DNA of 20,614 bases from Physcia stellaris (lineage: Eukaryota > Ascomycota > Lecanoromycetes > Caliciales > Physciaceae), in NCBI GenBank assembly GCA_018902385.1, contig JABSSW010000127.1, forward strand, positions 1 to 20,614. Reading direction: 5' to 3'. Position 1 is the first letter of the stretch, and every line of letters begins with the position of its first letter. The notes under the pieces were generated by a model, which worked only from the letters and a program-made list of their open reading frames with translations, did no database searches and was not told the origin of the DNA. Positions 1,626-20,614 of the stretch are shown in pieces. A program made the translations under genes and the position numbers.

Positions 1626-2072
1626 GACCTAAGGGTGTGCGTGTAGTGCGTTCAGTGGCAGAGCAGCGAAAGCGGAAATAGAACTGTACGGTAATGAAAT
1701 GGGTGCACCTATGGAAGAAGGTCTGGTGTCTCTATCTTGTTGTAACAGTGATAGAGGGAAAGGAGAGAATGTAGTGGGAGAGGAGCTTTGGGTGATTGCA
1801 GGATATTGGTAAAGTATGTTGACCTCTATGTACATTAGGAGTGTTGACCTCTGACGTGTATTTCGGTTGCTTGTTTTCCAAATATTACCGGATGCCCCTT
1901 CCGTTTTAAGTAAAATACCATGAAGGCACTAAAATTGCAGTATGAAGTCTCATGCAGTGATTCACAAGAAGTGTAATGGCAATTCTCGCGGACCGCGTTC
2001 CTTTTCCTATTTGTGGGAAGCCCATCACGCAATTGATGAAATTCGCAAACCATCTCCAGCGGCGGCTGCCCA

Positions 2073-2345
2073 TCAAATGTGGCTTCTGCCCTTTCCCATT
2101 AGAACTCCGATTCTCTCGGTAAGTAGAAAGAATACTGCAAGAGACACTATCGCTATCCCTCCCCCAAGCATCGCCACCAATACATCTAATATGACAAGAC
2201 GCGTACGCGTGTTTGGCACAAAGCAAATGAAGACGGCATGAAGACGATATGAAAATGATATGAAGACAACATCATCTTCTGATTCCGCTCTAAGTCGGGT
2301 AATGGTAGATCTGTGGATGTAGAGGTTAGCACCACTTATTATCAT
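2073..2345 (-). CDS. Possible small membrane-segment ORF, unrecognised
   Basis: This open frame gives 90 residues. One strongly hydrophobic stretch (VAMLGGGIAIVSLAVFFLL, about residues 58-76) would fit a single membrane helix. No signal-peptide-like N-terminus or known motif is visible. The 11-bp tandem repeat at 2227-2270 lies inside the frame and contributes the SYRLHAVFI region. It may be a fragment of an old gene or chance; overlapping frames on both strands are similarly long. I do not recognise it. Confidence 0.15.
   Translation of the reverse strand: MIISGANLYIHRSTITRLRAESEDDVVFISFSYRLHAVFICFVPNTRTRLVILDVLVAMLGGGIAIVSLAVFFLLTERIGVLMGKGRSHI
2227..2270. repeat. 11-bp tandem repeat, four imperfect units
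   Basis: Four consecutive 11-mers start with ATGAAGACGGC: ATGAAGACGGC, ATGAAGACGAT, ATGAAAATGAT and ATGAAGACAAC. The units differ by one to four bases. It looks like a small minisatellite. Confidence 0.8.
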
Positions 2346-2383
2346 TACCGGACCATGGGATATCCGAAGGTGAGATTATGAGT

Positions 2384-2403
2384 CATGATATCGAAATATC
2401 ATG
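2384..2403. repeat. Small perfect hairpin (8-bp stem)
   Basis: CATGATAT and ATATCATG flank a 4-nt CGAA spacer. No associated gene or run of T suggests a function. Confidence 0.45.
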
Positions 2404-2592
2404 CTAGTAGATTCAACAAGAAGACTCATCCAGAATTCAAAGGCGCTAAAACAGAGTTGTGATTATCAAATATCACACTTCGCATCAAATTTGTACCGTA
2501 TGGAATCAAGGATCCGGACCAAAAGGACATACGGGCCGAATCCCGACAAGGGTCAAGGGTCCAAGCCAAGCAGGTTCGAAACACTAAGTAAG

Positions 2593-3053
2593 CTATTAGC
2601 GTGGAAGGTTGCTTGCAAATCCTTGGCATCCTCCTCCCCAGGAACCCCCTCTCAAATTTGTATGGTAGGTAGTAACTGAGAAAAATTTTCAATTGATGTT
2701 TCATCCACCTTTTCAAAGCATATAAATCATTGAAGTCTTAAATTCTTCTGTATAGCCGTTTCTTGATGTTGTTTTATCGATTCTTCATCCAATGCCTTCA
2801 AAACAAGACGAAACTCTAACCTAAGCCACAATGATCTCGCTGAAGGAGCGCGAGTCTGAGTTTTGATGACGTTATCGATTTTGCGAAAAGACATGCCTGC
2901 AACACCAAGAAACGGCTATACAGAAGTATTCATGTCTTCAACGAAAGGTGGTTGAAACATCAATTGAAAATTCCTCTCAGGTTACTACCATACAAATTTG
3001 AGAGCGGAGAGGAGGATGCCAAGGATTCGCAAGCAACCTTTCCACGCTAATAG
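2593..3053. repeat. Large imperfect inverted repeat (arms 2593-2771 and 2900-3053)
   Basis: The left arm starts CTATTAGCGTGG and the right arm ends CCACGCTAATAG. Reverse-complementing the right arm gives long collinear matches: TTGCTTGC, ATCCTTGGCATCCTCCTC, CTCTCAAATTTGTATGGTAG, TTTTCAATTGATGTTTCA, and CTTCTGTATAGCCGTTTCTTG next to the spacer. The arms are about 179 and 154 bp, differing by indels and scattered substitutions, around a unique spacer at 2772-2899. No flanking target duplication is evident. It may be a fold-back or MITE-like element, or two copies of a repeat inserted head to head. No transposase is visible. Confidence 0.8.
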
Positions 3054-3572
3054 TTGATGAGAGCTTTGCGGCTGAGAGATAACACACTGCAGCAAAGCCC
3101 ATGGACTCAAACCCAGGAGGCCGGACGCTCTTGCGGCTCTGGCAGGTAGAAGACGTAGGAAACCTCACGTAGCTTGCAGTCTTGTTGAAAGCGCTGGAAC
3201 CAAGGCAGCCAATGTTTTGTTCGCTTGAGTAGCTTTGCCATCTCAGCTGGCGCCATCCAGAGCCATAGGGGACTGCGATAGGTGCCCCTTCGCTTAATCG
3301 GTCTCTTCATTCGTCAAATCATCCCACTTGTCACGAGAACATACATGCTCATCCTCACAGCCCATGCCACCTATCTCATTTCCCATTCGTCAACAACACA
3401 TTTGTATCGACCGATATCACTCCATATCAGCCGGCTCGTGCAACGTTGATGCGCCTCTCAGTCAGTACATCCTGGTGTTTGAACTCTGGGCAGGTCTCTG
3501 TCTCCTTGGCCAGAAAGATAGGTGGTGAACTGGAAGTTTTTATTATGCACGAGGCTAGGCTAAGTACAATGG
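3054..3572. other. Unassigned normal-composition segment before the repeat block
   Basis: A minus-strand frame at 3310-3107 (67 residues, Trp- and Lys/Arg-rich) and short frames at 3328-3709 are open, but none shows a recognisable domain. CC, GG, CT and AG are common here, so this DNA has not been through the mutation process seen to its right. Confidence 0.4.
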
Positions 3573-3798
3573 TGTTGGAGGGGAGTAACAGGAAACTGGC
3601 TATTGGCCCATTAAGCGAGTTGCACGTGACTAGCCTTATATGCTTGGCATTCGGTCTTCTACAAACCGCCTGTAGCATTCTTCTAGATAGTCATAATTCA
3701 CACATCTGACAACAGGAACATTACATTCGATAATTGATTTTATTGAATTTCGATTTCTTGATTTTCTGTCATTGTGTTAATTATTTTCTTTATTGATG
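3573..3798 (+). repeat. Left copy of direct repeat (LTR-like), largely unmutated up to 3714
   Basis: It is homologous to 7125-7347. The first 142 bp (TGTTGG...CTGACAACA) keep CCC, GGGG, GCCT and AGAT runs that are mutated in the right copy. From 3715 on it is as AT-rich as the rest of the block. If the LTR is only 3573-3714, the continued homology to 3798 is unexplained. Confidence 0.75.
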
Positions 3799-4683
3799 TT
3801 CATTCTCGAAAACGAATGACAATAAAATCGTCGTTGATCGTTCACTGTTTACATTTTTTGAAAACAGCAAAATCGAGTTTTTATTACACGACAACAATTT
3901 TATCGATTGTTTATTTTTTCGAACGACGAAGTTCTTTATATTATTATTATTGAACGTCGAAATTTCAATTTCATACGATTTATAATTGACGAATAGTTTT
4001 AATCAGCACGTTGTAATCTCTGCTTTCGATTTCGAACATATTCGATTTGTTAATTTCGCAATATTTTTTCGCAGCAACATTTCTGTCTTTTCAGAAACAA
4101 AACATCAGACACGTTGCTTGAATTCTCGCTACGAATAATGAAAAAAGCGATTACGAACAATTGTTATTGTCGTTACGAACGATTGCCGTTATTGAATTGA
4201 TTAGATTTCTGAAACGATTCAATCAAAACGTACATTTATTAGCGATTTCGACATTCGTGCGAACGTTATTATCATTTCTGAATCACGTCAATATTCGATG
4301 CTTGATTTGAATACATTGTTCATGATACAATTTTAACGAACAAAGCGTGTATCTTCGTCAAAAATTCAATCGATTTGTTTCAGCATTCGCAGCAATAATT
4401 TCGACGTTTTGTTTCAATATTCGTTGTTGAAATGATTTCGACATTCTGTTTCAAAATTCGATTTCGATAATTTGTTCATTCATTTGACTGAAATCGTTTC
4501 GTTTCGACGATAATTCGAATCAACGTCATGATTTATTTCGAAAGTTTTACTCGTTGAGACAGAAATTTTCTGAACGCGTGTTGTCATGTGTTGTTCTCGA
4601 ATATGTTTTGTAACGAATGAATGTTGAAAATTATTCGTCATTATAATGTTCGAACATTCGATTGAGTCGTCAACAACGTTAAA
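3799..4683 (+). other. 5' internal part of element A, unassigned
   Basis: The sequence is saturated with the C-to-T/G-to-A pattern, and no protein motif is readable. Three imperfect ~38-bp repeats occur around 4370-4460; two of them carry TTTCGAC followed by TGTTTCAA and ATTCG (near 4399 and 4437). An N-terminal Gag segment could be hidden here. Confidence 0.35.
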
Positions 4684-5448
4684 ATGAATCGTTTTCGTCA
4701 TGTTGCAGAGTTTGAATATGTTACATCTGAACATGAAATTCAATTAATCAACGTCATCATGAAATTTCGTGATTCACGACAAGAAATCAATGTTTATTTC
4801 AACAATTTACATCAAGCATTCGACGAATTCATTGAACAATATCATGCGCGAATTATTCATTTTTTTTGATTTTATTGATGACGTGAATCGACAATTTGAC
4901 ATTATTTTGAACGAATTTGACGAGAAATATCATTTTCAGAAAATGATTGAAATCTTTTGTGAATTTGAAAAACAAGCAGTTTAACGAGCAATTGTTGTCA
5001 ATATATCAAGAAAAAAATCACACATTTTCAGTTTGACAAAATTTTGTATAATTGCATCAATAAAATACGCAAGCATACAACACGATCGAAAACGTCAAAA
5101 AAAAAAATCAACTGATTTTACAACAACAAATTCAAAAGATCGTTGATCGTGATAGCGTTCGAATTTTAAATCGTTACGAATTTCAAATTGTTTCTAAAAA
5201 CTTGTCATGCAATTTGATTTAAAATCTGTACAACTGTGAATATCACGAATATTTTGTTTTTTTCGAAGTTTATTGTTTCAGAATTTACGAGTTTTCAGAA
5301 GTCATCACACGAAATCAGATTTGTTGACGAGTTTTCGTTTGTTCTGAAACAAATAATGTTTGAAATATCAAAAATCAGTACAGATATCGTGAATTCTAAT
5401 GATATCGAATCAATCGACGAGATTCTCGTCTCTGAATTTCGCAAATGA
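4684..5448 (+). pseudogene. Gag-like remnant of element A
   Basis: The frame from 4684 stops just after the T run at 4860-4867. A second frame continues the same kind of sequence (DFIDDVNRQFD, NEFDEKY) to 4984, so the break is a frame change in the T run. The helical, charged, Asn/Phe/Glu-rich sequence resembles the capsid part of fungal LTR-element Gag. Near 5227-5257 there is a possible degraded CCHC knuckle (YNC...H), then a Ser/Ile/Asp/Glu linker (5236-5448). The homology is judged by eye and is weak; it could be another element-encoded protein. Confidence 0.35.
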
Positions 5449-5583
5449 ATTGTCGTCGCAACAAAAAAGAAAATTGTTGATTACATTAATACATTTAACG
5501 AAACTTTGAAAAATTCGTTCGTATTCGATATCGAATCAATTTCGAATATCTCATTTGATTGAAATCGTTGTTACATTGTTGAT

Positions 5584-6030
5584 ATGAAAATTTTGAATCA
5601 GAAAATTTTTGCTTTGATTGTCATGTATGACGCATTTTCGAAAAATTCGTTCGCATTATTCATCGAGAATATGAAAATTTCGATCGCAAATAATATGTCG
5701 TCTTTCAAACATCTCATGAACATGAATGATTCGACTATTGAAATTTTTGATTTTGATATTACAATAGACGCACATTCGAAAAATTCGTTAATACAACATA
5801 TCGAAAATTCAGAAATCACGAAAAGATTTCTGTTTCGATTTTCATTGATTTCATTTTTGATTCGATTTTCATTTACGAATTATTTGCATTTTTTGTTTTC
5901 GATTTTGATTTTGATATCGATTTCGAAATTTATACAATCGATATCGAAACATTTTCATTTGATTGAAGTCGTTGTTGTATTAATTTTATTGATTTTCGCA
6001 TTTCGATTTTTATTTGTATTTTTGTTTTGA
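5584..6030 (+). pseudogene. Low-complexity linker ORF of element A
   Basis: This 148-residue frame has Asn/Ser/Glu-rich beginnings and a Phe/Leu/Ile/Ser-rich end. The apparent membrane segments at its C-terminus are probably artefacts: CpC and CpT mutation turns Pro, Ser and Thr codons into Phe, Leu, Ser and Ile codons. The ancestor was probably a Pro/Ser/Thr-rich disordered linker downstream of Gag. It has no known domain. Confidence 0.3.
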
Positions 6031-6510
6031 TTGTCATTGTCATCATTTCGAATGTCATTTTTTGAAATTACAACTATCGACTTCTATGTGAAAAAGCAAT
6101 TTTTGTTATTTTGTTTCGTTGATTTTTCTGTTTCGTTCGTTGATGATGTCATTTCTATTAATCAGAATATCGATTTTTATGAGAAAAAACAATTGTTTTG
6201 CTCGACGAAATATTTTTTTGTCTCGATTATCACTGAATGCATCACTGTTTCGAATACGAATTTTTATGAAAAAACAATTTTTCTGTTTCAATGTTGATTT
6301 TGTTGTTGTTGTTGAAAATATCGACGCGTTCATTCTGATCGCTGATTTGATCAATATTACGATGAATTTTGTCTAAATATCATTTCTAAATTTTATTGAG
6401 AACGCGATCTCGAAATCGAAACATAAAAAATTGTCGAAGATGAAAATCAAACAATTATCAAAATCGAAACATATCGAATCAAAAAATAAAATCGTTGTTG
6501 AAATATTTAT

Positions 6511-6840
6511 CAAATTCGCATACAAAATCGTTTTGTTTTTTGACATTTGACAACGATTAAAATCTTTGAAATAATTGCAAAATACGCATGCAAAATGATC
6601 ACGTTTTCGAACACGTCAATAAAAATCAATATATTTGAGATATTTGCAAGATTTGCATACAAATTCGTTTTGTTTTTTAACATTCAACAATCGCAAAAAT
6701 CTTGAGATAATTGCAAAATTTGCAAACAAAATAATCATTTTTTCGAACATGTCAACAATCGTCAATACATTTGAAATATTTGCAATTTTCGTATACAAAG
6801 TGATTTCGTTTTTCGATAATGCGCAAGATTTCAAAACGTG
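6511..6840 (+). repeat. Tandem repeat of ~69 bp (about five units), coding for a 23-residue repeat
   Basis: Units start at 6511, 6578, 6647, 6714 and 6783 and measure 67, 69, 67 and 69 bp plus a decayed last unit. Units 1 and 3, and units 2 and 4, are closest, giving a 136-bp higher-order period. In the plus frame, units 2 and 4 read as 23 residues of the form AK(Y/F)A.K.I.FSN followed by (T/M)S and a FEIF end. The 67-bp units break the frame, consistent with 2-bp losses from a 69-bp ancestor. A repeat protein within element A is the simplest reading. Confidence 0.75.
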
Positions 6841-7089
6841 CAAATTCAAAATTTTCGAATTAGCATACGATTTCGACATTTCGAATTTGCAAACAGTCAT
6901 ATTTGATATCATGCGATTGCGACGAAAATAAAGTTTTATTTTTATGAATTTTCGGCATTTTCCGATATCTGTTTTACGAATTTTCTTTTTTTCGACGTAC
7001 AACGTGATTTATTTGATCTGATTTTCGATGTCAATATTGTCATGCGTTAAAAAATCTATGTTGTCTGATTGAAAATGATTTAATGAAAT

Positions 7090-7107
7090 GATGTTGAAAA
7101 CAACATC
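7090..7107. repeat. Small hairpin just upstream of the right LTR-like copy
   Basis: GATGTTG and CAACATC flank AAAA, 18 bp before the start of the right repeat copy. Its role is unknown. Confidence 0.35.
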
Positions 7108-7124
7108 TTGCTATGAAAAAAAAC

Positions 7125-7347
7125 TGTTGAAAAAATAACAAAAAATTGATTATTGATTCATTAAACGAATTGCACGTGATTAATCTTATATGTTTGACAT
7201 TCGATTTTTACAAAATCGTTTGTAACATTTTTCTAAATAGTCATAATTCACACATCTGACAACAGAAACATTACATTCGATAATTGATTTTATGAATTTC
7301 GATTTTTTGATTTCTTGTCATTGTGTTAATTATTTTCTTTATTAATG
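7125..7347 (+). repeat. Right copy of direct repeat (LTR-like), heavily mutated
   Basis: It is aligned with 3573-3798. Almost every difference is C-to-T or G-to-A in the right copy, at CpC, CpT, ApG or GpG. It is preceded by a purine tract. Homology stops at 7347, shortly before the large Gypsy insertion. Confidence 0.75.
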
Positions 7348-7391
7348 ATTGAAATGCTTAATAAACATCAATTTCGTTCGAAGAAGTTGCA

Positions 7392-7396
7392 CATCA
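7392..7396. repeat. Target-site duplication CATCA, left
   Basis: CATCA directly precedes the LTR starting at 7397 and is repeated at 14898-14902. Confidence 0.85.
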
Positions 7397-7613
7397 TGTG
7401 AGATGTCATGCATTGATATGATACTAATACATAACTACACGAGAATTTTTAAGTAAAAAACAAATACATGAAAATCTGCAAAGACATATGTAAGAAATTT
7501 GATTTCTTGAATGCGTCAAGACGAATTTCGATTCTAACATTCGATAATAAAATAACGATGTTAACACGATGTTAATTCTGTTCAGATGTTGAATTCGATG
7601 CACGTTCGTCACA
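7397..7613 (-). repeat. 3' LTR of the Gypsy element
   Basis: Read on the minus strand, this LTR starts TGTGACGAACGTGCATCG and ends TCTCACA. It differs from the other LTR by about 20 transitions, with no indel visible in my alignment: about 14 at CpT/ApG, 6 at CpA/TpG and 0 at CpG. Confidence 0.9.
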
Positions 7614-7660
7614 TTATTTCTCGTTTTTCGTCAATTTCGCTTCGAAGCGATTAATCGATT
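7614..7660 (-). promoter_or_regulatory. Polypurine tract and 3' internal terminus
   Basis: On the minus strand the internal region ends with GAAAAACGAGAAATAA immediately before the LTR start TGTGACGAAC. The segment TAATCGCTTCGAAGCGAAATT just upstream, and the tract itself, match the end of the small element at 17808-17842. Confidence 0.6.
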
Positions 7661-7804
7661 TTTTTCTTTCTAACGATGAAGCGATCTGTGCGCGATTTTG
7701 ATACGTCGTTAAATAATCGTTCGATAAAATGATTGTAAAAGCGAAAAAATGAATTCGAAATTTTGTGAAATAAATTTCGTTCGCGAAATCGATTTGTCAA
7801 GAAT

Positions 7805-8290
7805 TCTGAAAACATCAAATCGGAATTCACGATGAAAACAGCAATTTGATCATGTTAATAAAATTATCGCAATAGCGCTTAACTCATTGATATTCGTGTT
7901 TATGCGAAAAATGATGTGTACATTGTATTCAACAAAACATGAAAATAATGAATTTTCTGAAAAATAATTAATTCATACAATTTTTTGCGAACAGTTTTGA
8001 TTATCATTAATAAACAAACAATTGAAAATTTTGTTTTGCGCGTCAACATTTTTCAAGTTTCAAATCGATTATATCATGAAACAAACAATTTGATTTCATT
8101 GATAAAATCAACGTAACAACGATTAACGCATCGATATTTGAACGTTTGCGATAATCGATGTGTACGATTCGTTCAATAAAACGAATAAATAAAAAATCTT
8201 CTAAAAGATAGATAGTTTTTTGCGAATTTGATGAGTAATTTCGTCGATCATCAATAAACAATTAAGAATCTTGTTGAGAATCTTGTCGAT
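7805..8290. repeat. Imperfect ~244-bp tandem duplication in the Gypsy 3' noncoding region
   Basis: Landmarks recur in order in the two halves: TCAAATCG, ATGAAA..CAATTTGAT, CATTGATATT / CATCGATATT, GATGTGTAC, TTTTTTGCGAA, ATCAATAAACAA-like and a final CTTGTT / TTTTGTT. The offset is about 244 bp (7831 aligns with 8075). The copies are strongly diverged. The region lies between the end of integrase and the 3' LTR and may be a 3' UTR duplication; no protein domain is readable. Confidence 0.6.
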
Positions 8291-8829
8291 TTATTTGTAT
8301 ATAACATTTCGAACAATTTGTTGTTTATTTGCATTCAACATTTATTTTTTCATTGTTCAATAAGATCGAACGACAATTTCTGAAAATGTTTTTGACACGA
8401 TTCAGTCTTTCATGCGTCGTAAATTTTGATTGTAAACAACACAAAATCGAAACAAGAAATGAATGTGAAATTATTGAAAATCAACACGAAAATGAGTGTA
8501 CATTGAATCGAAAATTGACGAAATAAATGTTGATCGATTACAAACATTTAATCGTTTCGCAAAACAAATTCTGTTGTTCTTGAATTAGTTTCGTGAAAAA
8601 CATTCACGATATTTTGAGCATTCTGAAATTCGTCGTCGTCGACGTAATATCAAATGCGATCGTGAAAATTTCAATTCGATCATTTACAACGATATTGCAA
8701 ACGATGATAATAATATCGAAATTGCAATATGTCGTTCAATTTTCATTCGAACGTTTCATTTGCAATAACGAATTTCGAAAAATCGTTGTGTTGTTTTTTC
8801 AATGAGTCATTGAAATTTTTTTTCAACAA
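8291..8829 (-). other. Gypsy region downstream of integrase, unassigned
   Basis: Minus-strand frames here show no clear chromodomain or other module. A diverged C-terminal tail of integrase is possible near 8593-8805. Confidence 0.35.
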
Positions 8830-9890
8830 TCAAAAATAAAAAATTGAATGAATGTGCATGTCATCGAACAATTTCAGTTCGTAAACAATATTTCGTTTTT
8901 TGACAACGAAATATGAATTTAATTTTTTGTCATTCAATTTGTCAAATGAACGAACTGTTTTGATATGACGACGATCTAATCATACATAATTTTTATCTCA
9001 AAACTGATCGAAAAACGAAACTTGTTGATTCGAACAATCATTTTTTGTTTAACATCAGCAATATTGATTTTGATTCATTCGATGATGCGATTCATTTTTT
9101 CGACGATGAATTCGTTTTGTTTGACTAATAAACGTTTTTTAGTGATTTCGTAATCGTTCAGATTCGAGCCAAAAATCATTCGAAAATGATAATTTTTATT
9201 AATGAAAAACGAAATGAAATTCGTGATTGCGAAAACGTTATTGTTGTCAACGAATTTCATGATGTCAATTCAATCAATTCAATCGTTCTGACGATAATTG
9301 CAATAAAAACGTAAACGAATTTCAATGTTTTGATTAATTCGTTCGATTTGATCATCGATTTGAAACTGAAACGTCGTGAACAATTTACATTTGATTTTCA
9401 GACGTTTGCAAAAAGTTTTTCAAACGCGATTTACAAATTGATCATTTCGATTCGAAACGATAAAAAAAAATCATGCGTGCGAAATACGTAATGAAACAAT
9501 ATTTTGACGTAAATTTCGACGATCAATTCGTTATCATCAATCACGCAAAAACATAATGTCGTTTTTTTGATTAATCGATCGATAATAATGCAAATAACGT
9601 TGTTTTTTTTGAATTCAAATAATTCGATTATGAAATTTATCGAAATATTCATTCATCGCTGACTAGAAATCGACAATGATGTTAATAATTCATGACGATC
9701 ATCGTGTGAAAATTTAAATCGTTGACATCTGTGACAATTACGAATGTAACGTTTGATCGATAATCGCATACTAAATCAATAATAATAACGTTTAATGAAT
9801 TTCTCAATGCGATTCATGTTTGAATGAACACAAAAAAATTGATCGTGAACATCGCGAATTATTTCAATCATGAAATTTAATCGATTTGAT
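8830..9890 (-). pseudogene. Gypsy integrase (HHCC, catalytic core, C-terminal domain)
   Basis: Integrase would join the element cDNA to chromosomal DNA. On the minus strand the HHCC zinc-binding module is readable: VHD (His codon 9845-9847), a second His in VHSNMN, and NCHRCQ with Cys codons 9734-9736 and 9725-9727. The core follows: ISINFIIELFE has Asn (9635-9637) where the first catalytic Asp belongs, SNRNDQF has Asn (9450-9452) in place of the second Asp, and QIERIN keeps the Glu (9342-9344). The C-terminal part reads through 9260-9075 to a GPY/F-like stretch near 8985-8840 (FVVKKRNIVYEL). TGA stops at 9776-9778, 9420-9422 and 9279-9281 sit where related integrases have Trp. A frame change lies in the T-rich run near 9462-9470. 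Confidence 0.88.
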
Positions 9891-9892
9891 AT

Positions 9893-10600
9893 TCATAAAT
9901 TTTCGTTTTTGAAAAAAACGTCGTTTCGATTTGAACATTTTTGTAAATTTATTTTCTCGTTGATGTTTTGCTCATCGATCAAAATTTGACGATAATTAAT
10001 GCAATTTTCATTTTTTCGATTGATTTGCATGATTCGTTCGTACAAATCGTTTTGAACGTCAATCGAACATAATTGCAATCGAAAAAACGACAACAAAATT
10101 TGTTTTTTATAGAATTTTCGTTCGTCGTCATCGACAAAACGAAATTCAAACATTCGAGTCAAAACGTTCGTTTTAACATTTTTGATTTCGAATTGATATT
10201 GAATTTTGATGTTGTAATCGATCAAAATTTCGATTCAACGTATTTGACGAAAAATGAACTTTTTGCTTGTCATGAAAATTTTCAGATTTTTATGATCGAT
10301 GTAAATTTCGACGAATTCGTTGATTTTTTCGAATTCGAATTTTCAATACTTTAGACATCGAATAATGATTAAAAATTTTTTGTCGTATATTTCGTAATTG
10401 CATTCGACAAAAATCATCTTTTTGTTGAAAAAAATTATCGAATGAAAAATTTCGTCGTCGTCGTATTGAGATAGAATTTCATTCAAACATCAATTTGAAA
10501 AATCGATTTTCAAAATAGTTTTACGATTGCGATCGTAATGTCGAAAAATTGAAATTTCAATTATTTGTTTTTTAAAAATTTCGAAAATTTCGTTGACGAA
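9893..10600 (-). pseudogene. Gypsy RNase H domain and start of integrase linker
   Basis: RNase H removes the RNA template strand during reverse transcription. The readable motifs in order are [14 protein letters not shown]-like [15 protein letters not shown], then MTSKK and LIDYNIKIQYQ, the typical C-terminal end of Gypsy RNase H. TGA at 10343-10345 (after IRCLKY) and at 10235-10237 (after RQIR) both replace Trp conserved in relatives. The final frame (10225-9893) continues into the linker before the HHCC module. Confidence 0.85.
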
Positions 10601-11552
10601 ATCGATTCATTCGAATTCAATTTTTTTTTTGATTATTCGAATTAAAAACTTGACGAATTTCGAAAACGTTTTAATGAATCGTCGATAAAAATTGCAAAAA
10701 TTTACAAACGTTTGCATTTTTTTGATGCACGTTGAACGAATTCAATTGACAATGTTTTGCATTTTTTTAAAATTCATTCGTAAATTTTTTGTCGATAATA
10801 TAATTTCTAAAAACGAAATTTCTGTTTTGAAAAATTCGCATTTTTGATATCGATTTGAAGATCGACTTTTTTCAATTTTTGAAATATTTGAATAAGATGT
10901 CGTTCGTGCTTTTTCGAGTTTTATTATAAATAAGAATATCATTCAAATACATTTGACAAAAATGATTGATGTATTCGAACAACAAATCGTTCATGTAATG
11001 TTGTCAATTGATCGAATCATTGATTAATTCGAAAAATAATACATGATATTTGTAAATGTTTAACGAACATATAAAAATGATGAAATTTTCGCTTTGTGAA
11101 TTCATTCGAAATTTATTGAAAATCGATATAATGTTCAATTTGAACAAAAATTTGCAATCGATAATTTTAGCGAAAATTTTCTCAATTAATGAAATAAAAT
11201 AACTATTGCGTTTGATTATGACGTTCAGTTTTCGATAATTCACACACAAACGAAATTGATCGTTTGACTTGACAGCGAATAAAATGAACGAAACGTAAAA
11301 TGTTTTGCTTGAATTGATAAATTTTTTCTGAAAATTTTCATGAAAATATTTCTGTAAAATTTCGAATTTCTTAGACGATAAAGAATAAACTCGATTTCGA
11401 GACAATTGAATCGATTTTTCAATCAATTCGATTTTATGATCGTAAAATTTGTGAAAAAATAATTTATCGATTTTTTTGAAATTCAATACGTTTTCGAATC
11501 GTTTAAGAAAATCAAAAACTTTACGTTTCAATTTTTCAATGATTGCTTTCAT
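10601..11552 (-). pseudogene. Gypsy reverse transcriptase with thumb/connection
   Basis: This RNA-directed DNA polymerase copies the element RNA. On the minus strand FRLCVNYRKLN (canonical Asp of the DYRKLN motif is Asn) is followed by FKLNIISIFNKFRM, where the first catalytic Asp is Asn (codon 11133-11135), then YHVLFFELIND. The YxDD box is YLND (10938-10949), again Asp to Asn. KCEFFKTEISFL and FCNFYRRFI (10673-10693) mark the end of the palm and the connection. A stop ends the frame at 11004 and TGA at 10742-10744 replaces the conserved Trp after VN. The domain is complete in length but inactive. Confidence 0.92.
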
Positions 11553-12000
11553 AATTTTAAACGTTTTTTTTTGAGTTCATATCGGAATCGAATTTCGCTT
11601 GAACTAATTTTTTTTAACGTTGTCAATAATTTCATTTAGTTTTTTCATGATTAACGAAAACGTTTTCATTTTTTTTTTTTTTTAGATTCGATCAGAAATT
11701 GAAAAACGATCGCGTCAATAAAAAAACATTTAAGAATGTATTGAAATTTAAATCGTTTTCATATTTTTCGTTGTCGAAAATCGTGATTTTAAATCGTCGA
11801 TTAAATCGTCGAATGAATTTCTTGATTAAATTCGATTTTCGAATAGAAAATTTCATGAATGTAAATTGTTGAAATTCTCGTATGATTTTAATACGTCGTT
11901 TCTTCTTAAAAACTTGACGAGAGAATATTTTTTATCAATTTTTTCAATGACATATCGAGAATTGAAATTTAACACGATTTTCGAGAAAAATTCATTTTTT
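11553..12000 (-). pseudogene. Protease-RT linker of the Gypsy polyprotein
   Basis: A minus frame at 12071-11853 (FTIENYDKKNEFFSKI, RYVIEKIDKKYS) overlaps the end of the protease segment in another frame and leads toward RT. It has no catalytic motif; its position fits a linker of the polyprotein. Confidence 0.55.
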
Positions 12001-12560
12001 TTATCGTAATTTTCGATTGTAAAACGAAATGATTGAATTTTGATCGTTTTCGACGATGAACGTCTTTGCAAAATCGTATATTTCTGCGAATTTATCGATA
12101 CTGAAAACTTTTCGAACGATGTGAAAATGATAAATAAATATTTTTTGATGAATGTCGATACTCAAAAACGTTTTTAGATTTTTAAACGTTTCGAAATGAA
12201 TACAGCGATCTGATTTAAAAATAATTTTATCGATTTGCATGTTTAATATCACGTCGTGCGTGTTCATTCAAGATTTATTCAAAATCAAAAAATGAACGTT
12301 TATTTTCGTAATGAACATGAAAATAAATAATTCAAAATGATTTTGCATTGTGAATGTGAAATAAATGACATGAATAATAGATTTAATCAAACGATCGTCA
12401 AGTTCGTTGACGTGTTTGAATCAAGAAAAATTACAAAATTTATTTGAAGTTTTTCACAAATCAATTGCGCAATCTTTTCATCAATGAAAACAAATTCAAT
12501 AACATTTGTGTTCATTAATGTTTGCACGTTGTGTTCGTGTTTATCGAAAAATTAATGTAC
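12001..12560 (-). pseudogene. Gypsy aspartic protease (retropepsin-like)
   Basis: This enzyme would cleave the Gag-Pol polyprotein. The minus strand reads LMNTNVIEFVFIDEKIAQ. The five codons at 12498-12512 (N-T-N-V-I) sit where a D-T/S-G-A-T/S active site is expected, and each difference is a G-to-A or C-to-T change in GpG, ApG, CpC or CpT context. Then come a DDRLIKSIIHVIY segment, LILNKS, a TGA at 12268-12270 in place of the Trp usual in this position, and MNTHDVILNMQIDKI (12267 downward). The overall pattern matches retropepsin regions of ascomycete Gypsy elements. Frame changes occur near 12400-12420. Confidence 0.75.
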
Positions 12561-12610
12561 ATTGAATGACTAATGAATTGTTTGTGAATCTATTGAACGT
12601 GTTGAATGTT

Positions 12611-13850
12611 TTAAACATTGTTAAAATTGACAACATTTTTTTCGCGATTTTGAAAAGATTTAGACTTTTTCGACTCATGTTCGAATGAGAATTTCTCGCT
12701 AATCTCGTTGATTTCATCGTTCGTGATAAATTGACTTAATTGAGTCGAATTCTTGAACAAAAAGTCGATTATGTTGTGAATTTTCAAAGCGTTTTTTTCT
12801 TTACGTAATATTTTTGAATGTAAAGAACAATCGATTTTGATTTTGAACAATTTTTGATCAATGATTCGACGTTTCGCATTTGTAACAATTTGACGACATT
12901 TTTTTTTTAATTTGAAAACTTTTAAGCGCGATCAATTTCGAAACGAAAAATTTTTTAAAAATTGACGAAATGAAAACACGAATAAAAAATTTGACGTTGA
13001 TTTTTTTATTAATTGATTGATCAATTCGAATGAATGTTTCAAATTTAACGATTTGATAATTTTTCAAATTGTGAAATTTTTGATTTATCGTTTCGATCAA
13101 TTTTTTCAGCGAATTGACATCGTTGAACTTTTCATTGCTGACGATAATTCGTTGAAAAACAAACGTTAATTTCTCGCGAAATTCATCAATCAAAATTTGT
13201 TGAAAATAATTGAATAATTGACTAGATAAAAATACGAATTCGAAAAAAAATTTCGAAAAACGTTGATTGATGTTCATTTTGAAATTTTTGAATTTATTTC
13301 GCACGATACGATCGATGTTTTTTTCGACAAAAATTGTAATCAATAAAGTAAACATCTCGTCGATCGTTTTGAAAAACAAAAAATCATGTTTGCGTCGAAC
13401 AAAAACATGATCGCGAACGATTTCATTCAATCATAATGACACGATCAAAATTTTCATTTGATTCGTTGAATAATGATTATTGTTGATAATGAATTTGTCA
13501 CGAATCAATTGTTTTCAAATTTCATATGATAATTTCGAAATGTTTTGTGAAAATTTGAAAAATTCGAAATTTTAACATTACGTTTTTTATTTTTTGTAAC
13601 GTTTGTATTTGAAAATGAAACGAAAACGATGATATCGATTCTTTTCAAATTGATTTGAAAAATGACGTTTTCGATCGTGAATTGAAAATTTTCGATGAAA
13701 AAATCGTTGTTTTTAAATTTAAAATCGATTTGTTGATTTCGAATGATTTGAATCGTATTGACAAATTTATTGTAATTATCGACATGTTCGTTTCATTGAA
13801 CAATGCAAATTACGTCGATATTTTTATCGACGCGTAATTTTTCGAAAATT
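12611..13850 (-). pseudogene. Gypsy Gag (capsid and CCHC zinc knuckle)
   Basis: Gag would form the cytoplasmic virus-like particle and bind element RNA. A 190-residue frame (13430-12858) carries the helical capsid region, for example FKTIDEMFTLL, FVFLSSQLFNYFQQ and LIDEFREKL, as in fungal retrotransposon Gag. It ends in NCYKCETSNH, the first three ligands of a CX2CX4HX4C knuckle (Cys codon 12885-12887). It then hits TGA at 12858-12860, and a one-base frame change hides the last Cys. The frame 12850-12611 is the acidic, Ser/Glu/Lys-rich tail. Upstream (13850-13432) there is a Ser/Thr/Lys-rich N-terminal part broken by stops. The true start could not be fixed. Confidence 0.8.
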
Positions 13851-14680
13851 TTAAAAATTGATGTCGAATCATGACGAATTCAATTGATCAACTGTGTTTC
13901 AATACAAATGTTGAAAAAATTTTCACAATCGTTTTTTTTTATCGAAAATTGATGAACGTTTTCGAAATAACAGCAAAAAATGTTCGAATTCAAAAACAAA
14001 ACAATGAAATCAAATAATTTTTGTTTTGATTTAAAAACGACAATACGATCGATTTGAATAATGCGTTTGCGTTTCATGAATGCGAATATGTTGAATGACA
14101 TGATTGTTTGTAAAAAAAAAATTTGATTTGCAAAAAAAAAAATCGAAATCGAAAAACGTCTGCAATAAAAAAAAAAAAAATTATTATTTGATCATTATCA
14201 ATTGCGAAAAACAACGAATGATATGTAACGTGTTGTTTAAAAATGTGATAAACAAAATGAATAATTGATGTTTGATTCGTGATGTTTCGTTATTGATATT
14301 GATTTTTGATGAAATCGAACGTCGTTTACACAATTTGTCGTTTTCGTTCAATGATCGAAAATAATGTCAATTCGTCGTTTCGATTTGTAACGTACGATTT
14401 CGTCGTCGTTTTGCTAAAATATCGAAATAATTCTTTCGTGAAAATTCACACTCGAAATCGCTGTTTTTTAAAAAATGATTTGCGTGAAATAAAGTTTCGA
14501 TGTTTTCATTCGAATCGTTTGAACTTTTGATTTCACGTGAACAAAACTTTTTCGTTTTCGTTGCACGTTTAGAATTTGATTGTTGACGTTTTAAATTTTC
14601 GCGTTTGATTGAAATTTTGTTTATTGAATAAATTGTCGTATTTCGAACAACTTGAAAAAATTAAAATGATTTAAAAATAA
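13851..14680 (-). other. Gypsy 5' leader and Gag N-terminal region
   Basis: This is the segment between the 5' LTR and readable Gag. Minus frames (such as 14101-13880) have no recognisable motif. On the minus strand the sequence right after the LTR, where a primer-binding site should be, is TTATTTTTAAATCATTTT. The small element has a similar start there (TTATATTTGATTTTCATC). Poly-A/T runs at 14116-14124, 14138-14146 and 14168-14180 are frequent. Confidence 0.45.
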
Positions 14681-14897
14681 TGTGAAATGTCATGCATTGA
14701 TATAATATTAATACATAACTATACGAAAATTTCTAAATAAAAAGCAAATACATGAAGATTTGCAAAAACATATATAAAAAATTTGATTTCTTGAATGCGT
14801 CAAAACGAATTTCGATTTTAACATTCGATGATAAAATAACGATATTAACACGATATTAATTTTGTTCAAATGTTGAATTCGATGCACGTTCGTCACA
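14681..14897 (-). repeat. 5' LTR of the Gypsy element
   Basis: It has the same length (217 bp) as the LTR at 7397-7613, with TG...CA ends, and CATCA follows. It presumably contained the promoter. Most differences from the other LTR are mutated states in this copy. Confidence 0.9.
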
Positions 14898-14902
14898 CAT
14901 CA
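14898..14902. repeat. Target-site duplication CATCA, right
   Basis: Perfect match to 7392-7396, showing that the Gypsy inserted as one unit. Confidence 0.85.
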
Positions 14903-16238
14903 ATCAGCTTACAAAAAATCGAATTCATAACAATTTTTTTTCGATTTCAAATTATTGAAAATTTGAATGTTTCGAATGCAATGTCATATGAAAACGATGC
15001 AAACATTTCAAAAAAAGTTTCATAACATTTTTTGTCGATTTGTTAATTCATTTTGTTTTCACTTTTCATATTGTAACATTCATAAATTCTTGTATTATCA
15101 AAAATTCATGTACTTTTGCGTTAACACACATTTTTCGACGAGAATATTCAAAAAAACGAAACAAAAAATATCGATATCGAAACAATTTTGTAAAACAAGA
15201 TAGTCGAAACGTTGTTGCTCGATGAAAACTTTAACGCGAATTCGTTCGTTATTGTATTCGTAATGCTGTATTCGTAACTTCGTAACTCGTTCGTGATTCG
15301 AATAAGAATGAAAAATCGCGTGACTGAATTGCTATTTCGACTCGATATGTTGAATATTCGAAAAAAATTTGAGGAAAAAATATTTTGATTTCATTGAATA
15401 ATACGAATATGTTGAATAAACGTATTATCAATGAATTCGTAATCGACATCACGTACAGATGTATTTCATTGTCAATCAAAAAGATAAAAAATCAATTAAA
15501 ACAACACATGATTTGATTTTGAATCAATCACAATTTCGAAAAATCACAAATTGACGAATAATTACATAATAAATGTTTGACGTTTCATTCATTTCGTTTC
15601 GCTCGTTTGAAAAAAAAAAAATCAATCTTTTTCGCATTCAATTAATGAAATTTAACGTGTTTATTTCGTGATTTTTTTTTTCATTTGCAATCACGATTAT
15701 TTCATCAATAATACGTTTATTTTGATTATTGCGACGTCGTTTGAATCGTTTGAATCAAATTTATTATATCATAAAATTATCATGTCATTTGTTGAATCAA
15801 CATTTAAATTAATTATCGTTCAAAAAGAAATAAAACACGTGTCGATGCAAACGTTTTCATTTCGAAATCGAAAAAACGATTTTTATTGCATTAAAACAAA
15901 AAAATCATTCAAACGTTTGAATTCGATTATACATTTTTTATTATATTTATTCATCGATTATTTGAATTGCATCACGTTTATATAACGTTTTGAAAATTCG
16001 TTCAATTGTTTTTTTTTTTTTGTAATCGATATTCGATTTATTGTTTCATCACATCAATCAAACAATTTATATTTTAAAAATTAATTGAAATGTATTCATT
16101 ATGATGAAATTATGTCAATGAATTATTATACGCATTCAATTGATTTAACATTTTGCAAAAAACGCAACAATTCAATTATTTTGATTTCAAAAAAATTTTC
16201 ACAAATTATTATTCAATCGCGATCGATATTAAATCATT
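14903..16238. other. AT-rich relic between the two complete LTR insertions
   Basis: Before the insertions this was continuous with 7348-7396 on the left and with 18030 onward on the right. It is fully affected by the CpY mutation pattern. Open frames (plus 14967-15203, minus 15479-15249, plus 15668-15985) carry no motif I recognise. A short repeated string GTATTCGTAA occurs twice near 15254-15277. It is probably an old transposon or mutated duplicated DNA. Confidence 0.4.
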
Positions 16239-16243
16239 AAACG
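16239..16243. repeat. Target-site duplication AAACG, left
   Basis: It directly precedes the LTR start TGTTACGAAC and is repeated at 18025-18029. Confidence 0.85.
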
Positions 16244-16423
16244 TGTTACGAACATGTTTGAAAATCTCGATTGAAATCTTATCTTATCAGCGAGAATTCA
16301 TATCGAAATTAGTGAAAACTTGACACACATTTCTATTTTTGACATTCGATTTTCATGTAGATATTTGCTTTTTAAATCAAATATTCTCGTTATGTTATTT
16401 GTTTTCTAAACATGCGTTTTACA
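16244..16423 (+). repeat. 5' LTR of the short element
   Basis: TG...CA ends. Compared with the 3' LTR there are about 16 transitions (about 13 at CpT/ApG, 3 at CpA/TpG, none at CpG), plus a few A/T changes and a 2-bp length difference. Confidence 0.88.
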
Positions 16424-16557
16424 TTATATTTGATTTTCATCGTGACGAACGATGTAAATTTCACATTCGTTATCGAAACGATCAGCGAATAAAAAGAAAC
16501 AAAATCGATCAATTCGTGACGATCGCACATTTTCAACACGAAATATTCTTATCAATT

Positions 16558-16580
16558 AACAATGACGATGAGTCATTGTT
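16558..16580. repeat. 9-bp-stem hairpin in the leader of the short element
   Basis: AACAATGAC and GTCATTGTT pair perfectly around GATGA, 135 bp after the 5' LTR. It could be a packaging or leader structure; this is speculative. Confidence 0.45.
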
Positions 16581-16748
16581 TTTAACACGCGATTTTTCGC
16601 TTTGAGTTTTGCGAAATTAATTGACACTCGTTCAAATTTTCTGTTTCGAATGAATTGCTGATCGAAATACGCGAATAAACAAAATAAAATTGTCAATTTG
16701 AAATTCTTTCTTTGAAAACGATGATTGCATTTCATTTTCATTATGCGC

Positions 16749-16874
16749 ATCGTGAAATTTGCGAAAATGATCGTGAATCAACGAAAATGATCGTGAAATC
16801 TGCGAAAACGATCGTGAATTAACGAAAATGATCGTGAAATCTGCGAAAATGATCGTGAATTTGCGAAAATGACG
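16749..16874. repeat. Tandem 20/21-bp repeat inside the short element
   Basis: About six units of the form GAAAATGATCGTGAA plus a 5-6 bp variable end. The ends alternate (TCAAC, ATCTGC, TTAAC, ATCTGC, TTTGC), giving a 41-bp higher-order period. Every unit keeps the palindromic core GATC. The minus-strand frame reads an Arg/Phe/His/Ser repeat, but frequent stops in the other frames do not favour coding. Confidence 0.85.
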
Positions 16875-17653
16875 ATTTTTCAATAATCGATTTTCTTGTT
16901 CGTCGAAATCAATCGACATTCAATCAATAAACGATTTTTTTGTTTCGAATCAATCAATTCACTTATCAAATGATTTTTACAATATTCATTTTCTTAAACG
17001 TTGAAACATCGCTTGATAAAAAAAAAAATAAAAATTACACACACAACAATTTCACATCAAATCATCAAATCAACAAACAATCACTCAAAATTTCAAACAA
17101 AATTTTCGATTTTTAAATCTGTTACATTCTCAACATGATCGAAAAATTTTCGTTTCGTTTCGTTTCGTTCGTGTTTCAACGATCTGTTTGCTTCAACGAC
17201 ATTCAATGAACTCGTTACAATAATCATTTTCGATTCTTTACATCTTTTGCAGTCAATACATCAATGAAAATGAATCTATTACAGCAACGATACGAAAACA
17301 AATGACATAAAAAAATGAAAAACAATAATCAATGCGAATTTGTTCGACGATCAAATCAATTCGTTTTTTCGTAATTTTTGTTAATCGTCGATGCGTCAAC
17401 ATTTTATTCTGTTTTAGAATTTGCAGTCAATCAGAACGCGTCGATTAATAAAAATTCGAAAAATTCAAATTCGAAAAGTTTGAAACAACATACGTTCGCG
17501 AAATCGATATCGTTTTGTTGTTTTTGTTTTTGTTTTGTTCGAAAAATCGATCGATTCATCATACTAATTTGCAAATATTTTTCGCATCAATTCGACAAGA
17601 TTTTCATCAAAATTCTCATCAAGATTTTCATTTTCGTGATTTTATATTTTTTG

Positions 17654-17679
17654 TTTTTTTTTTTTTTTTTTTTTTTTTT
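17654..17679. repeat. Homopolymer of 26 T
   Basis: An uninterrupted T run follows TATTTTTTG. It was probably a T/C tract homogenised by CpT-to-TpT mutation, and its length may be unreliable in the assembly. It generates a false poly-Phe frame. Confidence 0.8.
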
Positions 17680-17807
17680 GCATTTATTTTTTCACGTTTA
17701 TCGCATTTGTTTTGAAATTTTCAACGTCAATTATGTTCAAACAGATATTTGAATTATAATCAATGAATTTTTTTGCAATGTCGATCGATAAAAAAAATGA
17801 ATAATCG

Positions 17808-17842
17808 TTTCGAAACGAAATTTGAAAAAAACGAGAAAATAA
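17808..17842 (+). promoter_or_regulatory. Polypurine tract region of the short element
   Basis: AATAATCGTTTCGAAACGAAA, then GAAAAAAACGAGAAAATAA, ends directly at the 3' LTR. It is collinear with the minus-strand 7614-7660 of the large Gypsy. Confidence 0.6.
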
Positions 17843-18024
17843 TGTTACGAACATGTTTGAAAATTTCGATTAAAATTTTATTTTATTAGCGAAAATTTAT
17901 ATCGAGACTAATGAAAACTTGACACACATTTCTAATTTTTTGACATACGATTTTCATGTAAATATTTGTTCTTTAGATCAAATATTTTCGTTATGTTATC
18001 TGTTTTCTAAACATGCGTTTTACA
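17843..18024 (+). repeat. 3' LTR of the short element
   Basis: Homologous to 16244-16423, TGTTACGAAC to TTTTACA, followed by AAACG. Confidence 0.88.
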
Positions 18025-18029
18025 AAACG
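18025..18029. repeat. Target-site duplication AAACG, right
   Basis: Perfect match to 16239-16243. Confidence 0.85.
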
Positions 18030-19289
18030 TTATTTGAACGTTAAATTTAATCAACAAATGTCATACAACAATACATCATGATTTTGAAAAATCGAAATCG
18101 TTTTGAATGTTTTCAAAAATCGATTATTTTCGTTTATTATTTTGAAAATCATTTTGCAATCGACGAGTCAGCAATCGAATTTCACGATCGTATGAAAAAT
18201 AAATTTCGTTTGTCACACAAATCAACGAAAAAAATTTCGTTTTATATGTTTTGATCAATGATAAAAACATTTTATTGTAAAAATTCAAAATTAATAAAAT
18301 TAATGTGAAAAATCGTTTGATTTTATATAATAAACTAATCGCAAAAAACGCATAATTAATTTTAACAAAATTCAAAATCAAAATTAAATTTTGAATTTTA
18401 AACGAATATATCGTTTCAATTGTCGAAAAATTTTTGTCAAACAATCTGATCATTATATTTTTTTCTAAACAACAAACAAATAAACAATCATATTGCGCAT
18501 TATCAAGAAAATTTTCGCAAATATCGTAAATTGATTTCAAATCGTGTACGAAATGAATATTTGAAACAAAAATGTTAAATTTTGAATGTCAACAAAACAT
18601 ATTTGTTTTTATTTTTCGACGACAACAACATGATCGAAAAATTCTGAATCATTTGTAAAATAATTTCGTTTTCAATCAATTTGTATACGCAATTAATTGA
18701 TTTTTTAATAATTTATAATAACAATCGCGTGCGAATTGTTAATCAAACGACGATAAATGAAAATTCAATTTTGTAATAATCGTGATTAATAATGAACAAT
18801 TTTTAAATTGTTTGACGACGCAATTTCGTAAAAATATTCGAATTTGTGTCGAACAACAATAAAATTGAACATCGAATATTTCGAAAATGAAAACAATTTT
18901 CAAATTACGCATTTTCAAAATTTGACAATTATTCTAATTCAAATAAATTTTTTTTCAAATTTTCGATATTTTTTCGTTGAACGCGTACGATAAACATCAA
19001 ATGTTAACAATTGATTTAATGTAACGATCGAAAAATTAAATTTTTATACAATCAATGTTCGAACAATTGTTTGTTTATCGTTTGTATAATTTTTACAAAC
19101 GTTAATTAAAAAACATACGACAATTGCATTTATATGTATCGTGTTTTCGAATATTTTTTTAACAAATACGTTTTCGTTACAAATTTTGATTCGATAATTG
19201 AATAACACAATATTTTAATTACGTTCGATAATCGAATTGATACGCGTGTTCACGACGATGCGATTGACAATTTATCGTCGTATTTTTTT
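18030..19289. other. AT-rich relic, with an unrecognised minus-strand frame
   Basis: A minus frame at 18540-18124 (138 residues) begins MKSIYDICENFLDN and ends EIRLLTRRLQNDFQNNKRK. Its middle is Leu/Ile/Phe/Asn-rich, as expected of a former Pro/Ser/Thr-rich stretch. No family is recognised. From 18541 to 19289 I see only mutated AT-rich sequence without motifs. Confidence 0.35.
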
Positions 19290-20329
19290 GTGCGAATCAA
19301 TCGACGAAAATTTGAAATATTATTAATTTCAACGATTTTGTTATCGTTATTATTGCAATCAATGTTTGCAATAACATCGATTGCGATAACGATTCAAACA
19401 CAATTCGATCAATCATCAAATGAAAATGAAAATATTTTCATGAACGATGAAAACGATTCGATGTTTTCGTTGTCAATTTCATCGTCGTTCGATATCGCGA
19501 ATGAAAAATTCGAATCGACGAACGAAAACGAAATATCAAAAGAAAATCGTTAATCTTTTTTATTGCGTGCAATTTTTTTTTTGCTGAGATTAAAATTTTC
19601 AAATTACAAAAACAAAATTTTCGAATATCAAAAAAAAATGAAAAGAAAATCATTTTTGAATGCGTTTCGTATCAAAATTTTTCATGTATTCATCAAATCA
19701 ATTCGCATGCTAAATACATTGTCGCTTTCGATGAAATCGAAATTATTACAAAAATCAATTCGTTCAAATTCGAAATCTTTGCAACAGTGTATTATCGCGA
19801 TATTGTTTCGCAAAATTCGAAATTTTCGAAATTTTCGAAATTCGCTTTCAATTTTTCAATTTGTTTTGTGATTTTTTCGTGTGTTTTTTCGTTTTGATTT
19901 CGTTTTTGTTTTTAAGTTTTTCTAAGTCGAAATGCATTGACTGTACATTTAATTGATCATTGACTATATATCTGATTTGAAAACGATTAAGTCGAAACTT
20001 TCGATGTTGAAAAATTAATTTTGATCGATAACTTATCGATAATTTCGAAAATTTCGAAATTGCACGCAATAAAAAAATATACAAATAACGATTTTTATTT
20101 TCAATTAATTGATAAATCGATTGTTAATCTTAAAACGATGTCGTTTTTTGACGAAATCAAAATTTTTTTTACGATTGATTCAAAATTTGAAAACGTCGTC
20201 AAAATGAAAAATAATCGTTCGAACGTGTTATGTTTTCGTCGTCAAATTTTAAAAATCGATCGTTGCGTTACGACGTCAAAAAAACGTTCGATCGTTCGAT
20301 GTCGTGATATCGATAACGTTAAAAATTAA
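19290..20329 (+). pseudogene. Decayed coding remnant of an unidentified element
   Basis: Three successive plus frames follow one another: 19290-19553 (ending in a Ser/Asn/Glu-rich acidic stretch, SSNENEN, FESTNENEISKENR), 19563-19871 (Lys/Arg/Asn-rich basic) and 20021-20329 (ending in a basic NRSNVLCFRRQ...RSIVRCRD stretch). Alternating acidic and basic disordered segments fit a Gag-like or other element-encoded nucleic-acid-binding protein, but no zinc knuckle or enzyme motif is visible. Gaps with stops separate the frames. Confidence 0.3.
19814..19844. repeat. Short 10-bp tandem repeat
   Basis: Three units of about TTCGAAATTT; each contains the TTCGAA palindrome. Confidence 0.6.
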
Positions 20330-20614
20330 AAATTTCGTAAAACATGATTTTCGAAATGAAAATTGAAAAAAACGATGAATTTTTTTGTTAAAAATTAAAA
20401 ATTTGACGTTGAACGTTATTTGTTTTTATAAATTATATTACGAAAAAACAATATTATAAAAAACGATTTTATCGTGTTCGCGTTATATACGACGACACGA
20501 AAAAATCAATCGATTATTTTTTGATTGTATTAATTTATGATTTATTCGTATTTCAAATTCAATTTCACAAAACGAAACAAAAATGCGAAAATTTGAATAA
20601 TAAATACGATTTTT
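20330..20614. other. AT-rich tail of the window, nothing recognisable
   Basis: Same mutation signature; no repeat pair, motif or convincing frame. The repeat block continues past the window edge. Confidence 0.5.

Follow-up and report, generated by a model that had tools for sequence, protein, structure and literature searches.

The 20,614-nucleotide stretch of Physcia stellaris DNA analysed here (the window; GCA_018902385.1, JABSSW010000127.1, contig C127 of a 147-contig, 43.97-Mb genome) raises the question of what has removed cytosines that precede a pyrimidine (CpY, that is CpC and CpT) from most of its length, while cytosines that precede a purine (CpR, that is CpA and CpG) are still there. 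A first-pass annotation had proposed a process like repeat-induced point mutation (RIP) with a preference for a pyrimidine on the 3' side. In bases 1–3500, we found that GC content is 0.490 and that the four dinucleotides are evenly represented when both strands are counted (CpA 476, CpC 412, CpG 390, CpT 438); the CpY:CpR ratio stays normal through the 40-bp bin at 3680 (7:8) and is 1:8 in the next bin. This sharp edge near 3715 separates a GC-normal, unmutated flank (1..3714), which serves as an internal control, from an AT-rich block of mutated repeats depleted of CpC and CpT (3715..20614) that runs to the contig end. From 3801 to 20614, GC content is 0.267 and the both-strand counts are CpC 7, CpT 437, CpA 2047 and CpG 1996. 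With A, G or T on the 5' side, cytosine retention in the block, NCN/(NCN+NTN), is 0.48–0.56 before A or G, 0.055–0.086 before T and 0–0.01 before C; CCN triplets are too few to judge because CpC is gone. CpG is not depleted, and its observed-to-expected ratio in the AT-rich block is 3.33.

The proposal had rested on three repeat pairs aligned by hand, for which about 44 changes at CpT, 11 at CpC, 10 at CpA and none at CpG were reported. When we aligned the same pairs by BLAST, the coordinates held and 64 of 66 substitutions were C/T or G/A, distributed as 43 CpT, 11 CpC, 10 CpA and 0 CpG. Expressed as changed sites over changed plus kept sites, the proportion at CpY is 54/66 and that at CpR is 10/133 (Fisher p = 1.5e-26), and both members of the pairs carry losses. 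The first pair is a direct repeat on the + strand whose left copy (3586..3798) is 85.5% identical to a mutated right copy (7136..7347), with 11 changes at CpC, 16 at CpT, 1 at CpA and 0 at CpG; the outer ~130 bp of the left copy are unmutated. The second, also a + strand direct repeat (7393..7613 and 14677..14897), is 90% identical and differs at 14 CpT, 6 CpA, 0 CpC and 0 CpG sites and by one transversion. In the third (16244..16423 and 17843..18024, + strand), 13 differences are at CpT and 3 at CpA, with none at CpC or CpG.

To determine the direction of change, we used a GC-normal copy of a retrotransposon elsewhere in the genome (L005), a 1.5-kb piece of which matches 19 further places, all at 69–75% identity. 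In eight mutated copies compared with L005, cytosine was lost at 3424/3506 CpC sites (97.7%), 3128/3663 CpT sites (85.4%), 213/3507 CpA sites (6.1%) and 99/3240 CpG sites (3.1%). The eight are a set of 11 minus L012, L015 and L017, whose 60–285 transversions each suggest misalignment or age; the order CpC > CpT > CpA > CpG is kept in the set of 11 and in those three copies as well. The extent of CpT exhaustion varies by copy, from 72 to 98% across the 11. The 5' base has no effect at CpC (loss at ACC.97, CCC.95, GCC.96, TCC.97) or at CpT (NCT.82–.89), and the +2 base has little effect at CpY (CTN.85–.86, CCN.91–.98). The cleanest copy, L022, has lost 442/444 CpC, 451/462 CpT, 26/444 CpA and 0/411 CpG sites, and its substitutions comprise 389 C>T and 530 G>A (919 in total), one T>C, no A>G and one transversion. 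About a quarter of its positions are changed, and it differs from L005 by 10 indels of 1–2 nt.

Two further observations concern the L005 family. The rare CpA losses are weakly commoner before a pyrimidine (CAC.16, CAT.10; CAA.05, CAG.04). There are also many 1–2-nt length differences in A/T runs made by the mutation, which may reflect slippage in the new runs or sequencing error.

To ask how far the pattern extends, we sampled 30 reverse-transcriptase loci, 10 DNA-transposon matches, one ribosomal DNA (rDNA) copy and 25 arbitrary stretches. The depletion of CpC and CpT in AT-rich as compared with GC-normal DNA, which had been put forward for the window, holds beyond it. Among the reverse-transcriptase loci, 23/30 have GC content of 0.235–0.309 and a CpC share of 0–0.033; L010 is intermediate and L005–L008, L019 and L033 are GC-normal. 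None of the five arbitrary 10-kb stretches is AT-rich throughout, but 5/20 of the 2.5-kb stretches are, and all five show CpY loss. They account for 25/200 500-bp bins, with one more bin (in L058) showing reduced CpY, from which the affected fraction is roughly estimated at one-eighth of the genome, with a wide error. A DNA-transposon pair (L041/L047) could also be polarised and shows the same order at CpC (225/286) and CpT (187/317), with CpA at 22/308 and CpG at 21/324, although it is older (87 transversions). In L047, the mutated block (~460–2690) lies inside a repeated stretch (270–2840), so that ~140–190 bp are spared at each end. The sole 5.8S match (39 of 2644 candidates were scored) is a CpY-mutated rDNA copy, L040 (contig C41, 1–3154), and the 3.2-kb locus has CpC 8, CpT 152, CpA 389 and CpG 430. 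This favours the recognition of repeated DNA as such. As sampled, the mutation appears to be restricted to repeats, judging by the reverse-transcriptase loci, the DNA transposons, the rDNA copy and the edges of the L047 block. The first-pass annotation would have been overturned by CpA dominance or by the three pairs being exceptional; in these samples CpA is dominant in no AT-rich sequence and loss of CpC and CpT is general there.

The L040 copy also carries a long insertion in its small-subunit part, and no intact rDNA copy was present among the matches listed. L010 and L044 are patchy, with CpY-poor and CpY-normal 250-bp bins alternating within 3.5 kb.

A CpY mutator makes stop codons only from TGG (to TGA) and leaves CAA, CAG and CGA safe, which predicts an excess of TGA. 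In 150 scored reverse-transcriptase matches (of 527 candidates), we found in-frame TGA 250 times, TAA 33 times and TAG 3 times; 140 of the 150 contain stops, and in 112 of these TGA is the only kind. All-frame triplets in the window block (TGA 1066, TAA 831, TAG 78) indicate that composition partly explains the rarity of TAG but does not explain why TGA exceeds TAA. Within the reverse-transcriptase frame of the eight copies, TGG became TGA in 16/16 cases, CAA (8) and CGA (16) stayed unchanged, and 36/48 CAG codons turned into CAA, a silent change. DDE_1 transposase-profile matches agree (9/10 with stops; TGA 44, TAA 3, TAG 0), two of them (L046 and L050) being adjacent fragments of a single locus. 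With so few kinds of stop arising, annotation can mistake decayed elements for genes.

In the parts of the genome sampled, CpY hypermutation is thus genuine, strong and general; it works like RIP but is not of the canonical CpA type. That it is directed at repeats is very probable. In the mechanism we propose, C is converted to T on both strands of repeats according to the 3' neighbour, as the samples show, with CpC first, CpT next, CpA weakly and CpG essentially not; the mutations would arise in a burst set off by DNA homology, as in RIP, and a RID-class cytosine methyltransferase with a changed readout of the +1 base may carry them out. We put this statement as a whole, from repeat-directed C-to-T change with the order CpC > CpT >> CpA > CpG to the homology-triggered burst and the altered RID-class enzyme, at a probability of roughly 0.6.

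The search for RID and DIM-2 homologues that had been suggested for this genome returned candidates of both kinds. A PF00145 profile search gave four matches in three genes, L001, L002 and L003; the matches listed include no further methyltransferase gene, such as DNMT5. L003 has SPPCQ and EQT, the RID/Masc1 motifs, and L001 has SPPCQ and EET, the triad of RID in Botrytis and Pseudogymnoascus; both therefore carry PF00145 and PCQ, and ENV is replaced by EQT or EET, which assigns them to the RID/Masc1 class on the strength of their motifs. On visual inspection, motifs VIII and IX are separated by a short stretch in each of the two. A 60-nt GT..TAG intron in L001 restores the frame into the recognition stretch, and a second intron was read by eye. 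L002 combines PF00145 with PF25423, a layout that we read as DIM-2-like. NCBIfam and PDB searches confirmed the C5-methyltransferase fold only. A RID-class enzyme is, in our judgement, somewhat favoured as the agent of CpY hypermutation, and we would give even odds to the narrower proposal of RIP with inverted specificity, in which such an enzyme, probably of the EET type, recognises a pyrimidine at +1 and disregards CpG. Our candidate ranking would place L001 (EET type) first and L003 (EQT type) second, with the DIM-2-like L002 as a helper or a rival.

Several observations weigh against this account. A fourth pair in the window (6498–6677/6635–6813, 78% identical) shows no bias (CpA 11, CpG 10, CpT 4, CpC 0), and transversions make up 13 of its 38 differences; it belongs to an array with a period of ~136 bp (6498..6813, + strand), a counter-example within the block that we read as an old internal array in DNA where CpY was already exhausted. 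Two reverse-transcriptase copies of normal GC content, L006 (contig C5) and L007 (contig C12), whose open frames span 1024 and 1151 amino acids, are 95% identical over 3468 columns and likewise show no bias, with C/T differences at 31 CpA, 41 CpC, 22 CpG and 37 CpT sites. They are only 56–60% like the mutated L021, L024 and window copies and so do not provide a second polarised retrotransposon family. Our all-against-all comparison covered loci other than L001–L004, with matches of at least 100 columns and 78% identity, of which 70 out of 83 were listed. RIP hits both copies of a duplication, according to the RIPCAL abstract, and L005 is unmutated though L022 differs from it almost only by CpY mutation. 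From L005, L006 and L007 it follows that not every repeat is reached or that these copies have not yet been exposed. We found no strong strand tracts (autocorrelation at most 0.12). Finally, no intron with a standard acceptor was found in L003 to match that of L001; the L003 gene may therefore be damaged or rely on a non-standard site.

Among other explanations, the one that survives best is that the DIM-2-like enzyme methylates CpC and CpT in repeats and thereby promotes C-to-T change there, mitosis included, much as Dim2 of Zymoseptoria tritici does at CpA. A DIM-2-like gene is present, Z. tritici Dim2 is described as promoting mitotic C-to-T change at CpA (PMC8016269), and a review attributes a CpT preference to Neurospora DIM-2 (PMC13297926). 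However, CT sites in Z. tritici are reported to be almost without 5-methylcytosine (PMC8016269), methylation of the Pyricularia element MAGGY is described as favouring CpA over CpC and CpT, and the near-complete loss in L022 alongside two other substitutions demands a very fast process. We consider this route unlikely. A repair-limited specificity, in which every cytosine is hit but a T:G mismatch followed by A or G is returned to C by mismatch repair, fits the finding that the 3' base alone matters, and context-dependent repair has been proposed for CG as opposed to CA sites (PMC8016269). It would require repair to be near-perfect at CpG (0/411 lost) yet to fail at CpC (442/444) in the same L022 copy, which makes it improbable.

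Less probable still is a DNA cytidine deaminase in place of a methyltransferase. The genome has three matches to the OTT_1508 deaminase family (L071 on contig C38, and one each on contigs C34 and C17) with open frames of 436–805 amino acids, and C-to-T change without other changes suits deamination; against this, the context depends on the 3' base and shows no 5' rule. Enzymes of the AID/APOBEC type recognise 5' bases, and a signature of that type is absent here: loss is.95–.97 before C and.82–.89 before T for all four 5' bases. A 3'-base rule seems to suit methyltransferase recognition better than known deaminases. We also rejected editing of retroelement complementary DNA, because both strands, DNA transposons and rDNA are affected, and ultraviolet-type dipyrimidine mutation, because a C that follows T or C mostly survives if the next base is A or G (pooled losses in 11 copies: TCA.079, TCG.040, CCA.083, CCG.065).

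Slow decay of methylated cytosine in silenced repeats is very improbable. The affected DNA does consist of repeats and CpT exhaustion differs between copies, but slow decay cannot yield L022, in which about a quarter of positions changed (919 changes against 2 other substitutions) with almost nothing else; the 0/411 CpG changes in this copy, at the usual site of 5-methylcytosine, uphold the earlier exclusion of decay through CpG methylation. An assembly or base-calling artefact at modified cytosines is hardly credible: homopolymer length differences of 1–2 nt between copies suggest some read error, but many of them fall in A/T runs that are absent from unmutated sequence, conversion reaches 442/444, and copies have only some of their retained CpT sites in common. 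The sharing is above chance (for example 27 of 76 and 59 sites, with 9.8 expected), whereas a context error would have fixed these sites. Ordinary CpA-type RIP, which has only the AT-richness of the repeats in its favour, can be dismissed, because CpA and CpG are spared (CpA 213/3507 lost against CpC 3424/3506) and none of 199 1-kb windows with GC content below 0.33, taken from all fetched loci and in part overlapping, passes either the RIPper or the 0.89/1.03 index thresholds (highest TpA/ApT 0.60, lowest substrate index 0.97).

Repeat-directed CpY hypermutation has also left its mark on what appears to be a Ty3/Gypsy-like element in the window. The repeats at 7393 and 14677 can be read as its long terminal repeats because they lie 7284 bp apart and bracket a stretch 84% identical to the reverse-transcriptase locus L024. 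The internal part of this putative element (9300..12679, − strand) resembles genome loci retrieved with the reverse-transcriptase profile PF00078, with identities of 84% to L024 (3402 columns) and 81% to L021, and window positions 10674–11254 align to L005 on the minus strand. A Pfam search of single open frames in the window matched 0/9, including the single open frame 11004–11576 inside the putative element. Elsewhere in the block, degenerate arrays at 5468–5804 and 6479–6839 have a period of ~132–138 bp and 60–78% identity. In the unmutated flank, 2605–3040 contains four nested inverted-repeat arms of 23–45 nt, 87–96% complementary, with the appearance of a hairpin like that of a miniature inverted-repeat transposable element.

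Indices based on TpA score this genome as unaffected, and some RIP-negative calls elsewhere may therefore be wrong. If RIP with inverted specificity is at work here, it would be a fungal genome defence unseen by TpA-based screens, and mutated elements, with stops made almost only by TGG to TGA, would keep long open frames. For the question of what sets RIP site choice, the genome also provides a naturally occurring specificity variant in which the candidate genes are few. In the literature accessible to us, we found no report of RIP that is CpC-first or confined to CpC and CpT; most subscription papers, Clutterbuck 2011 included, lay outside the search. CpT-dominant alignment counts have already been published, both from RIP-capable controls (PMC7882544) and from Neurospora Tad1 (PMC2621366), so an excess of CpT among differences is not new by itself. 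What sets this case apart is that CpC comes first and that CpA and CpG are spared, measured against a known unmutated copy.

The closest point of comparison is RIP in Neurospora crassa, with which this genome shares C-to-T change on both strands of repeats, RID-class and DIM-2-like genes and AT-rich blocks with sharp edges. In contrast to N. crassa, the order here is CpC > CpT >> CpA > CpG and the indices are negative. A TpCpG form of hypermutation is found in basidiomycetes. The CpG hypermutation of basidiomycetes and Tuber resembles ours in that transposons undergo C-to-T change under a context rule (PMC4352252), but there it is CpG that is hit, whereas here CpG escapes. The order given for N. 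crassa is CpA > CpT > CpG > CpC, and in T. reesei CpA and CpG are described as about equally mutated, with CpC last (PMC5496416). A kingdom-wide k-mer screen describes RIP-like defences as sharing a CpA preference (PMC12543289); set against this and against the least-used CpC of Neurospora, this genome almost spares CpA and has CpC as its best site. CpT accompanies CpA in Botrytis, Sclerotinia and Magnaporthe (PMC4352252, whose main text contains no occurrence of the term 'CpC') and in Anisogramma (PMC10998396); for Sclerotinia, Clutterbuck is cited as finding CpA and CpG mutated more than CpY (PMC4188875). These signatures share with ours CpT as a major site, and Botrytis RID has the EET triad of L001. 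They differ in that CpA is mutated there, whereas here it is left almost untouched and CpC ranks first. Z. tritici Dim2 likewise links repeats to C-to-T change and ties it to a DNA methyltransferase, but the process there is CpA-specific and mitotic (PMC8016269). As for the RID/Masc1 class itself, P. anserina is described as having a single gene (PMC6709928) and Amselem et al. report one or two RID copies in some species (PMC4352252); the P. stellaris genome has two, one with PCQ and EQT (L003) and one with PCQ and EET (L001).

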